Positions 9,511 to 24,883 of a DNA stretch of 64,000 bases are shown piece by piece. Made by a program: the position numbers and the translations under genes. Within the stretch, counting starts at the first letter, position 1, and the number at the start of each line of letters is the position of its first letter. Source of the stretch: Fuerstiella sp. (lineage in GTDB: Bacteria > Planctomycetota > Planctomycetia > Planctomycetales > Planctomycetaceae). Below the pieces are notes generated by a model. The model was given only the letters and a program-made list of their open reading frames with translations, did not search any database and was not told the origin of the DNA. The stretch spans positions 62,001 through 126,000 of the forward strand of contig JALHMY010000004.1 in assembly GCA_022843805.1 (NCBI GenBank), read 5' to 3'.

Positions 9511-9544
9511 ACAGCCCCGTGAAACGTTAGTTTCACGGGGCTGT
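9511..9544. terminator. Bidirectional intrinsic terminator (tRNA-Asp side and 9035 gene side)
   Basis: A perfect 15-bp stem (ACAGCCCCGTGAAAC with its complement) and a 4-nt loop. On the plus strand it is followed by AATTTTTT; on the minus strand by TTTTCG. It can end transcription of tRNA-Asp on the minus strand and of the small membrane-protein gene on the plus strand. Confidence 0.85.
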
Positions 9545-9557
9545 AATTTTTTATAAA

Positions 9558-9631
<74 letters not shown>

Positions 9632-9757: not shown

Positions 9758-12178
9758 TTAGCGTCGAGGACGAGATCCGCGATCTCCCTGACCTGTACGA
9801 TCGCCACTGTTTCCTCCGCGTTCCGGACGTTCTCCGCCTGACCCGCCACGTTCAGTTCGCTCCGGACGACCTCCGGTCCGTTCACTTCCTCCGGCCCGCT
9901 CATTTCCTCGTTCCGGGCTTCTTTCACGATCCGGGCTTCGTTCGCGACGCTCACTGCCACGTTCGCGGTCCCCGCCACGTTCTGCGCCTCGTTCACGATC
10001 TGCGCCTCGTTCCGGGCTGCGTTCGCGATCACCAGTGCGTTCAGGCCCGCGTTCTCGATCGCCACTGCGTTCCGGTCGTTCACGTTCCGGGCGTTCAGCA
10101 CTGCGTTCCGGGCTTCGTTCGGTCGAACGTGGTGCACTCCGCTCGGGCGATCGCTGAGGAGCTCGTTCCGGCCGACGTTCTCCGGATCGCTCGCGTTCCG
10201 GCATCCGCTCGCGTTCCGGTAATCGCTCACGCTCGGGCATTCGTTCGGCAACCCGTTCAATATTCTGATGTTCGCGTTCGGGGCGTTCTGCAATCCGCTC
10301 GGGAGCACGTTCGGCAGTCCGAGGAGCACCTCGATCACCGCCTCGATCGGGCCCGCGTCCGCGATCACGACCGCCACCGCCGCCCGGACGTCCTCCGCGG
10401 CCCTGAGGCCGACGGTTGAAGTCTTCGGTTGGATGTTTTACAGCAAGGCAGCCGATCGCTTCTTCCCAGGTCGGGATATCCGCAAACTCGGCAGCAACCC
10501 GTGGAACTGCGGGTTCCGCTTCTCGCGAAGCGGCGGGCCGACGATCGTCACGACGTCCACGAGAAGGCTCATCAGATGTCCGTGCATGATCGGGCTTTCT
10601 GGCGGGTCGTTCACGACCGCCGGAATCGGCGCCGGCTTCGCGAGCACGTCCGGAGTCCCCGGCTGGTTCGGCTGAGCGTCCCCGACCTCGGCCTCGCCCC
10701 TGGCGACTTCGGGGAGCAACTTCTACGTCGGTATCGGCATCATCTTCCTCAATGTCAGCGAACAGGGTCCGATCGTCATCTTCTTCGTCTTCAACATCCT
10801 CATCGTCGAAATCGACAGGTTGTTCATTTCGAGCTGAGGGGCGATCCTTTGCGGCGGGTGCTGTGCGTTCATCATCCCTACCCCGTCCCCGACCTCGGCG
10901 ACCGCGCCTGCCACGACGTCGTCCTGCGGGCTTTTCTTCAGCATCCGCATCCACTGACTCGACATCTTCATCTTCATCGTCGTCGTCAGCCTCATCAGCC
11001 TCTTCCAGCACCGCTGCAAGAACATCGCTCACCGGATTGCGCTGCGCTTTAACGCTGGCAACGGAGACGCTCACGATGTCTTCCTGATCTTCTTCAAAAA
11101 GAATGTCAGTCAGATCGTCGTCATCTTCATCTTCATCACCAACATTTGCCAGCGGCTGTGAGGATGGCTGGGACTCTGCACCTTCCGATTTTCTTCGCCG
11201 ACCTCGCCCTCGGCCGCCTCGCCGACGAGGACGTCGACGTTTTCCGGTGCGGTCGCTGTCGTCGTCGCTGTCATCAGCCGAGCCGGATTCGGCAGCGACA
11301 TCAGATTCATCCAGCGCATCTTCCTCATCCGCGTCTTCATCGTCGAGTTCTGTTGCAGGCGAACTGGACTTACCAGCGTCTGCCCAGACCCAGCGATCAA
11401 GTTCTTCCCAGTAACTGTCGTCGGTACCAGATGCAGAACCAACTTTTTCCGGTGCCTTGCCTGGAGAGCCGACGGAAGCGTCGGCACTTGCTTTTGTGTG
11501 GGAAGACCTCGACGAGTTGCCACGCGACGGCGATTCGGAGACCCGTTCGGGCTTTGACTGCTCGGAGACAGCAGCGACCGGCCTCACGGGCTTTGGTGTG
11601 TCTTCCACCCGCGCCTTCACAGGAGCATCCCTGCGCGGAGCAACAGGGGCGTCGTCAAATACGAGGTCCTCGTCTTCTGCTTCGTCGTCAAATTCATCCT
11701 CATCATCGAACTCATCATCTGATTCAGCAACCATCTCTTCGTCTTCGAATTCTACCTCTTCCTCTTCTTCTTCGTCGTCTTCCTCATCATCATCGTCGTC
11801 GTCCTCGTCTTCTTCTTCATCATCATCGAAGTCGAAGTCTTCATCGTCCTCTTCTTCCTCGTACTCCTCGTCGTCTTCTTCATCTTCATCCGAGAAGATA
11901 ATCAGATCTTCAATATCTTCTTCGAACTGAATTGGCTGAGGTGCGCGGGCCGACGAACTGCCATCTCCCGCCTGTACGAGAACTTCGGACAGAGCCGTAT
12001 CGCCGGGCGAGCCCGATGCTTCCGTTGCGGATGCGGACTGGCCATCATCATATTCATCGAACAGCAGTTCCCCACCAATCGACGAGACATCCGCAGGGTT
12101 CAACCAGTTATACTGGTCGGCCAGCAGGTCTGTCTTTCCGGTCTTGTGTTTCAGCTGATCATCATCCTGTTTGGTCAT
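9758..12178 (-). CDS. Large acidic / RG-rich / ER-repeat low-complexity protein
   Basis: The 806 residues are almost entirely low complexity and arranged in blocks. Residues 1-90 are ordinary (MTKQDDDQLKHKTGKTDLLA). Residues 90-200 are nearly pure Asp/Glu. Two arginine-glycine patches follow (RRRPRRRGGRGRGRRR and GRRRGRRGRRGRGRGR), separated by further acidic runs. A short ordered-looking motif FADIPTWEEAIGCLA lies near residues 563-577. A tail of about 210 residues is rich in ERSPERS/GDRERG-type repeats and ends in PRR. RG patches bind RNA in many proteins, and acidic blocks next to them can self-associate; that is inference. The motif before the tail may be the conserved part of a planctomycete family. 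No signal peptide. It is divergent from the GTPase at 12313 across 134 bp. Confidence 0.8.
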   Translation of the reverse strand: MTKQDDDQLKHKTGKTDLLADQYNWLNPADVSSIGGELLFDEYDDGQSASATEASGSPGDTALSEVLVQAGDGSSSARAPQPIQFEEDIEDLIIFSDEDEEDDEEYEEEEDDEDFDFDDDEEEDEDDDDDDEEDDEEEEEEVEFEDEEMVAESDDEFDDEDEFDDEAEDEDLVFDDAPVAPRRDAPVKARVEDTPKPVRPVAAVSEQSKPERVSESPSRGNSSRSSHTKASADASVGSPGKAPEKVGSASGTDDSYWEELDRWVWADAGKSSSPATELDDEDADEEDALDESDVAAESGSADDSDDDSDRTGKRRRPRRRGGRGRGRRRKSEGAESQPSSQPLANVGDEDEDDDDLTDILFEEDQEDIVSVSVASVKAQRNPVSDVLAAVLEEADEADDDDEDEDVESVDADAEEKPAGRRRGRRGRRGRGRGRDDERTAPAAKDRPSARNEQPVDFDDEDVEDEEDDDRTLFADIEEDDADTDVEVAPRSRQGRGRGRGRSAEPAGDSGRAREAGADSGGRERPARKPDHARTSDEPSRGRRDDRRPAASREAEPAVPRVAAEFADIPTWEEAIGCLAVKHPTEDFNRRPQGRGGRPGGGGGRDRGRGPDRGGDRGAPRTAERAPERIAERPEREHQNIERVAERMPERERLPERERMPERERSGERRPERAPQRSPERSAPRSTERSPERSAERPERERPERSGDRERGPERTGDRERSPERGADRERGAERGGDRERGSERRERSPDRERSPERGNERAGGSERTGGRPERTERGGSGGERPERGGNSGDRTGQGDRGSRPRR

Positions 12179-24630: not shown

Positions 24631-24883
24631 CACCATCAATCGTCTCTCCCCGCGCCTCGGAGAGACGCCCACGTAGCCGAGTCTCTCCGAGACTCGCGCC
24701 TGCACCGCCGCCATTCGCCATCAATCATCTTTTCCCGCGTCTCAGAGAGACGTCCACGTAGGCGAGTCTCTCCGAGACTCGCGCAAGCAGGTCAGCAATT
24801 GGACATCAATCATCTGGATTTGCAATCGAGGCGTCTCAGAGAGAGGCCTCGATCTGCGAGTCTCGGAGAGACTCGCCTACGTG
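24631..24883. mobile_element. Repeat element with 28-bp terminal inverted repeats and tandem subunits
   Basis: The core 24755-24883 (129 bp) begins CACGTAGGCGAGTCTCTCC and ends with its exact 28-bp reverse complement (24856-24883). The same 28-bp ends bound 47072-47211. Upstream, units of about 85 bp opening with ATCAATC (near 24631, 24718 and 24803) carry related palindromes such as GTCTCTCCGAGAC. This suggests partial tandem duplication of the element. There is no coding capacity. It fills most of the 463-bp gap before the zinc-ribbon gene. Confidence 0.85.

Follow-up and report, generated by a model that had tools for sequence, protein, structure and literature searches.

Eukaryotic condensate proteins of the RG and SR type are characterised by block patterning, with RG and charged repeats. 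Bacterial precedents come from the scaffold of RNase E, here as far as the accessible parts of the cited papers describe it. In Pseudomonas aeruginosa, AR1, AR4 and the REER repeats of RNase E bind RNA redundantly, mutating all three together leaves no RNA binding in the assay and almost no foci, and both PNPase and RhlB depend on the NDPR and AR1 motifs (PMC11964227). The number of REER repeats varies between species, and the PNPase-binding motifs differ as well, with for example an arginine-rich RRRRRRSSA in Anabaena (PMC11964227), while the scaffold of Escherichia coli RNase E has microdomains (PMC4435900). For Planctomycetes, the available part of a 2011 review gives RNase E/G lengths of 509–588 aa and, from size, does not predict a degradosome-like complex (PMC3071783).

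The stretch of 64,000 nucleotides of Fuerstiella sp. DNA analysed here (the window) carries at 9758..12178, on the minus strand and stop codon included, an open reading frame for an 806-aa protein, with an ATG start and a TAA stop. The literature accessible to us, partly as excerpts, held no description of this protein, nor of planctomycete RNase E inserts. Judged from its relatives and from predicted structure, it is a genuine, family-wide and uncharacterised planctomycete protein, predicted to be disordered, whose conserved candidate docking motifs are more interesting than its ER repeats. It resembles the RNase E scaffold of Proteobacteria in its disordered chain with short conserved motifs (predicted here), in its arginine-rich patches (putatively RNA-binding here) and in RE/ER repeats that vary in number; it differs in not being joined to an RNase E catalytic domain and in carrying long acidic runs, and the likeness is one without demonstrated sequence homology. 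Block patterning with RG and charged repeats likens it to the eukaryotic RG/SR proteins, but unlike eukaryotic SR proteins it has neither SR repeats nor a folded RNA-binding domain such as an RRM (no Pfam match). An RNA-binding and condensate-forming role, proposed with eukaryotic proteins in mind by the first-pass annotation of this DNA, is plausible by analogy, and P. aeruginosa RNase E is a closer precedent for it than the SR/RG proteins.

Anatomy of the 806-residue protein

The three kinds of block described by the first-pass annotation are all found. Acidic residues make up 43 of the 50 positions 101–150; arginine patches lie at residues 313–329, 420–434 and 490–501; and the repeat-rich end, previously put at the last 210 residues, is a tail of 214 aa with 61 R, 39 E and 38 ER dipeptides, compared with a shuffle mean of 11.2 and a maximum of 20 in 2000 shuffles. 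The tail does not resemble SR proteins, having 1 SR, 10 RS and no K. Over the whole protein, charge segregation reaches 0.153 vs a mean of 0.077 and a maximum of 0.094 in 300 shuffles. Tandem 15-, 18- and 30-base repeats (72–94% matches) overlap the DNA of the tail, consistent with growth by repeat expansion.

Read from the N-terminus, with all features on the minus strand, the chain starts with motif 1 (residues 13–30, 12089..12142, by alignment and AlphaFold), followed by the microdomains GGELLFDEYDD (residues 35–45, 12044..12076, from the 20-sequence window-clade alignment only) and EDLIIFSD (residues 90–97, 11888..11911, from the same alignment), and by the main acidic run, delimited by composition (residues 96–172, 11663..11893). 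Motif 2, DDSYWEELDRWVWADA, occupies residues 253–268 (11375..11422, by profile and AlphaFold). Arginine patch 1, KRRRPRRRGGRGRGRRR (residues 313–329, 11192..11242), and arginine patch 2, RRRGRRGRRGRGRGR (residues 420–434, 10877..10921), both recognised by composition and alignment, flank a further window-clade microdomain, DILFEEDQEDIVSVS (residues 358–372, 11063..11107), and a third, RSRQGRGRGRGR stretch follows by composition at residues 490–501 (10676..10711). Motif 3, EFADIPTWEEAIGCLAV (residues 564–580, 10439..10489, by profile and AlphaFold), precedes the lineage-specific RG- and ER-rich tail, defined by composition and repeats (residues 593–806, 9761..10402). An unannotated family-wide planctomycete protein thus gains a defined anatomy of three putative docking helices, arginine patches and acidic spacers.

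In AlphaFold runs with homologue alignments, applied to the window protein and to one homologue (L132), pLDDT is below 50 for 692 of the 806 window residues. A single short motif had been taken for the ordered part of the protein; FADIPTWEEAIGCLA is indeed the stretch with the best predicted order (residues 561–580, ten-residue means of 83 and 75), but four helices are predicted, at motif 1 (13–23), motif 2 (253–265), motif 3 (571–578) and in the tail (633–645). The helices predicted for L132 (16–25, 80–90 and 408–421) coincide with its motifs 1, 2 and 3. Confidence is low at motif 1, with means of 52–53 in the window protein and 58–63 in L132. Such predicted disorder, interrupted by predicted helices at the motifs, is what a disordered chain that carries helical docking motifs would show.

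Is the frame translated? Purifying selection on the frame in homologue pairs indicates that it is: per-site nonsynonymous change is well below synonymous change in 11 homologue pairs, dN/dS is 0.11–0.15 in 9 of the 11 (pairs with a dS estimate), and the motif codons show zero nonsynonymous change in 7 of the 11. Searches of Pfam, NCBIfam, PHROGs and PDB sequences gave no match to the ORF. Pieces of 29 and 39 aa served as genome queries; the 39-aa piece had no match in a plasmid collection, and three separate searches agreed on a single copy in the 9.2-Mb genome that contains the window.

Conserved motifs within and beyond the family

The motifs read, from N- to C-terminus, W..LA.DLFGI (motif 1), YWDALexWxWD (motif 2, central) and IPTWEEAIgxL (motif 3). 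Patterns for all three are present in 46 of 55 homologues and never out of order; the 55 are not independent, because they include close relatives (nine from genus g39). In a set of 39 homologue ORFs, motif 3 is found in 39 (including L049 and L052, which fall outside the regular expression and have LPTWEEAI by eye) and motif 2, by regular expression, in 37; a false match in G050 (L071) is left out of the homologue counts. The regular expression for motif 1, having been adjusted to the sequences themselves, does not count as an independent test, and the counterpart of motif 1 in the window protein has diverged to LLADQYNWL, with its aligned position and predicted helix kept. The 20-sequence window-clade alignment adds the conserved microdomains GGELLFDEYDD, DLIxF and DILFEED..EDxVSVS.

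Around the motifs, acidic runs lie mostly on either side of motif 2 and arginine patches mostly C-terminal to it, with exceptions that include L051 and L144, and the acidic runs and the tail differ in length and repeat number among homologues. In the window protein 231 residues follow motif 3, compared with 24–73 in 33 of the 37 homologues measured and 120, 126 and 175 in others, and several relatives also show a high density of ER, in some cases ahead of motif 3; this long tail and the scattered ER density imply that the ER block is not a conserved core. From these sequence comparisons, the conserved core is the three short motifs with the arginine patches, and the ER tail is a lineage-specific addition.

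Absence from all relatives would have undermined the first-pass annotation; homologues are instead found in relatives by the 39-aa query and by the profiles of motifs 2 and 3. The query has a match at E<=0.1 in 45 of 101 same-family genomes, its own included. The search across Planctomycetota proposed earlier, run with a motif 3 profile on a phylum sample of 392 genomes, matches 28 of 28 same-family genomes (a denominator deduced from list order) at E 1.8e-17 to 1.4e-3. A profile of motif 2, constructed independently of motif 3, matches 35 of 37 genomes of the same family and, among 111 others from the class, none; wherever motif 2 and motif 3 matches are both listed, their open frames are equal in length. 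This profile misses G003, which has the gene with a decayed motif 2, and G059; its match in the window genome (G000) has E 3.6e-7, the window row being part of the profile. Reading of G080 and G053 confirmed motif 2 in acidic context, and motif 3 near the C-terminus with 68% identity over 38 residues in both. In G074, the homologue is located on G074:C1 at around 2,845,600–2,847,550. Motif 1 is less readily traced. At E<=0.2 its profile (A3) matches 34 of 37 same-family genomes, in G027 through a different ORF, and it misses G000. The window genome is likewise missed by the mixed motif 3 profile A4.

Taxon labels of 31 homologue loci, some of which are the same contigs as sampled genomes, are Planctomycetaceae, Planctomycetales, Planctomycetota, Planctomyces sp., Fuerstiella and Schlesneria, with two further labels Candidatus Kuenenia, apparently misassigned, and one plain 'bacterium'; L134, set aside from this count, reads as an unrelated amidohydrolase-like protein.

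Outside the family, many weak matches did not hold. Of the 15 motif 3 profile matches there, the four that were read (G362, G445, G409 and G398) look like chance. The motif 1 profile reaches 26 outside-family genomes at E 0.008–0.2, and of 12 places read only G493 (family f101) is a relative; among weak matches to motif 3', seven places were read, and only G568 and G632 (family f111) are relatives.

The f101 relative in G493, 181 aa long, combines motif 1 and acidic runs with a KKRRRRRRGKK patch and, C-terminally, VTSWKDLVAGLYRPER; as a query it retrieves similar f101 proteins with open frames of about 150–390 aa. A joint motif 3 profile matches, at E<=0.012, all 32 f101 genomes that had been examined for RNase E; 12 of its 14 rows come from f101, and the weakest f101 matches are called from score. 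The two f111 homologues, of about 500 aa, have arginine patches and NIPSWEEAIGSIIAVNMEARARS ahead of an RG tail, with IPSWEEAIGSIIAVNMEARAR as the f111 form of motif 3, and one of them (L383) has the motif 1-like stretches WFSLASEIGAE and WASLAASLG. Runs of DPRDIDPRDVDPRD repeats lie between the arginine patches in L383 and L384. In families f2, f5 and f102–f110, the short profiles, with weak matches read in part, gave no convincing homologue.

RNase E inserts and modules common to both proteins

An RNase E/G match is present in 143 of 148 genomes of the class. In the window genome this enzyme is about 532 aa long and lies at G000:C7, away from the 806-aa ORF. Within the window's family, 36 genomes have a match, and in 35 of them the open frame measures 525–639 aa; G037 is the exception, with 737 aa, or 534 counted from its start motif. 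Open frames of other families reach up to 1476 aa. The extra length is a disordered insert of 160–943 aa in the S1 domain, found at 19 long-insert loci of f5, f101, f102 and f104 among 41 RNase E loci; the insert lengths exclude L261 and 12 others, five of them same-family with proteins of 527–534 aa. Several planctomycete families' RNase E therefore carries very large disordered inserts, vs the 509–588 aa given in the part of the 2011 review available to us (PMC3071783).

Among L245–L262 (f5, f101 and f102), 16 of the 18 loci measured have an S1 insert of 269–943 aa, 12 of these 16 have FGxG[LI], and R runs of 4–9 occur in f5 and f102. In G509 (f106), the RNase E ORF (L278) has an N-terminal acidic extension, with a RRRRRRGARRKKKK patch ahead of the S1 domain.

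The inserts of f5, f101, f102 and f104 resemble the family of the 806-aa protein in their acidic stretches and FGxG[LI] density, and in f5 and f102 also in their R runs, which are short in f101 and f104. They differ in sitting inside an enzyme and in that the family has motifs 1–3, for which the RNase E inserts gave no profile match; by eye, two f5 inserts have a motif 1-like SWDELATNL and a motif 2-like AWAELDW, which is resemblance only. The pattern FGxG[LI] occurs 60 times in 35 of the 55 homologues (shuffle mean 0.16) and 19 times in 13 of the 19 S1 inserts of RNase E that exceed 150 aa (shuffle mean 0.06), at nearly equal densities of 20–21 per 10,000 aa. Control windows of charged, low-hydrophobicity sequence (132 windows from 992 ORFs, 7920 aa, RNase E and family-like charged ORFs excluded) contain no FGxG[LI] and two of the looser F[GAS]xG[LIV]. 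The looser form is absent from 32 RNase E catalytic parts and is near chance in neighbouring ORFs, with 22 seen vs 18.6 expected. The presence of FGxGL in both homologues and inserts suggests a common partner, and its enrichment in both ties the grammar of the family to the RNA-decay enzyme. The 806-aa protein of the window lacks FGxGL.

How are these modules distributed? In the window's family, R runs reach up to 11 in the homologues (at least 7 in 30 of 55), and RNase E has FGxG[LI] in none of the 6 read, with a longest R run of 2–3. Inserts of f5 have FGxG[LI] in 7 of 7 and a longest R run of 6–9, and those of f102 have it in 2 of 2 with R runs of 4–8; no homologue was detected in either family. 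The f101 inserts have FGxG[LI] in 3 of 7 (4 of 7 for the looser motif) and a longest R run of 2–3, and the compact f101 homologues have R runs of 8–10 in 12 of 17, with strict FGxG[LI] in 0 of 17 and the looser form in 2 of 17. In f104, 1 of 3 inserts has FGxG[LI] and R runs are short, and the two f111 homologues read have no FGxGL. On these sequence patterns, the modules look traded between the RNase E insert and the separate protein. A clean complementarity of the two does not hold, f101 having both compact homologues and long inserts. The rarity in bacteria that the first-pass annotation had attributed to such block proteins is not borne out in this group, since the homologues and some families' RNase E inserts share much of the grammar.

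Proposed function, alternatives and gene neighbourhood

The reading that we favour, with moderate confidence and by analogy, is that of a disordered RNA-binding hub that would act as the scaffold of RNase E does in Proteobacteria, while being a separate protein. The arginine patches and, in the window lineage, the ER-rich tail would bind RNA; motifs 1, 2 and 3, as short amphipathic helices, would dock folded partner proteins, as may the FGxGL modules in many relatives; and the acidic runs would space these sites and balance charge. In this way the chain would bring partners together on RNA, probably within condensate-like foci. If P. aeruginosa is a guide, the arginine patches and the ER tail would retain RNA, and enzymes would be bound by the three helices. 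We infer a cytoplasmic place, an RNA ligand, partner docking, foci and a pathway of RNA processing or decay. The protein and the RNase E inserts make the assembly of planctomycete RNA-decay bodies a directly testable question.

Could the protein be, more specifically, the trans-acting equivalent of the RNase E insert? A compact RNase E would then be served by a scaffold that recruits the same partner through FGxGL and RNA through the arginine patches, a possibility that we regard as doubtful. It is consistent with a compact RNase E in the window's family and long S1 inserts elsewhere, and with the different partition of FGxG[LI] and R runs between insert and homologue by family. Against this, f101 has long inserts and homologues together; f2 has a compact RNase E, and the profiles found no homologue there; the f111 proteins are without FGxGL although the RNase E/G frame of f111 genome G568 has only 613 aa; FGxG[LI] is present in only 1 of 3 f104 inserts and is missing from the window protein; and the inserts have no profile match to motifs 1–3. 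The corresponding picture of a degradosome built in trans, with R runs and FGxGL placed in the insert, split, or wholly on a stand-alone scaffold according to family, is equally tentative. If true, the RNA decay of Planctomycetia would be built around a free-standing disordered scaffold.

The arginine patches could equally bind DNA. In a nucleoid protein, they would contact DNA while the acidic runs tune binding and the helices join chromosome proteins, and planctomycete nucleoids are strongly condensed, which, with RGRGR patches able to bind DNA, speaks for such a role. We nevertheless consider it rather unlikely, as the FGxGL modules common with RNase E inserts point to RNA and no DNA-binding family was matched in Pfam or NCBIfam.

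Gene context bears on another alternative, a hub associated with ribosomes, translation or transcription instead of RNA decay. A tRNA-Asp(GTC) gene lies 126 bases downstream of the ORF (9558..9631, minus strand), and 6 of the 47 loci examined in relatives, all of them of the window clade (L032, L035, L036, L037, L039 and L041), show the same order, at 99–274 bases; a MtaB-like gene (tRNA modification, by eye) is downstream in 13 loci, L144 included. Both neighbours would suit such a hub, but neither is universal and both look like lineage synteny, so that this alternative appears improbable. The tRNA-Asp gene is absent downstream in clade members L033 and L034 and in the L103–L114 loci examined. 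Upstream, the 806-aa gene is divergent from a CobW-type GTPase gene (Pfam match), and thioredoxin-like, panC and GNAT acetyltransferase neighbours (by eye) are each confined to some lineages. As no neighbour gene is universal among the loci examined, context names no pathway, and the neighbourhood was set aside as a guide to function.

Low-complexity filler, neutral and with no function in its sequence, to which the variable length and repeat number of the acidic runs and tail might point, is highly improbable in view of a dN/dS of 0.11–0.15 in nine pairs, invariant motif residues and family-wide presence; it is refuted for the motifs, and the ER tail alone could be filler.

Several minor observations concern the DNA around these genes. 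In part of the window clade, the gene of this very Asp-rich protein is followed on the same strand by tRNA-Asp(GTC). In the window, a terminator-like hairpin of 15 pairs follows the tRNA gene (9511..9544, minus strand), as a consensus match only, the region having 4 terminator-consensus sites vs 3.6 in shuffles. A GNAT-like gene (by eye) lies directly 3' of the compact homologue in 10 of 17 f101 loci (L357–L370). Elsewhere in the window, positions 24634–24815 hold a two-copy tandem repeat of 85 bases with 83% matches.
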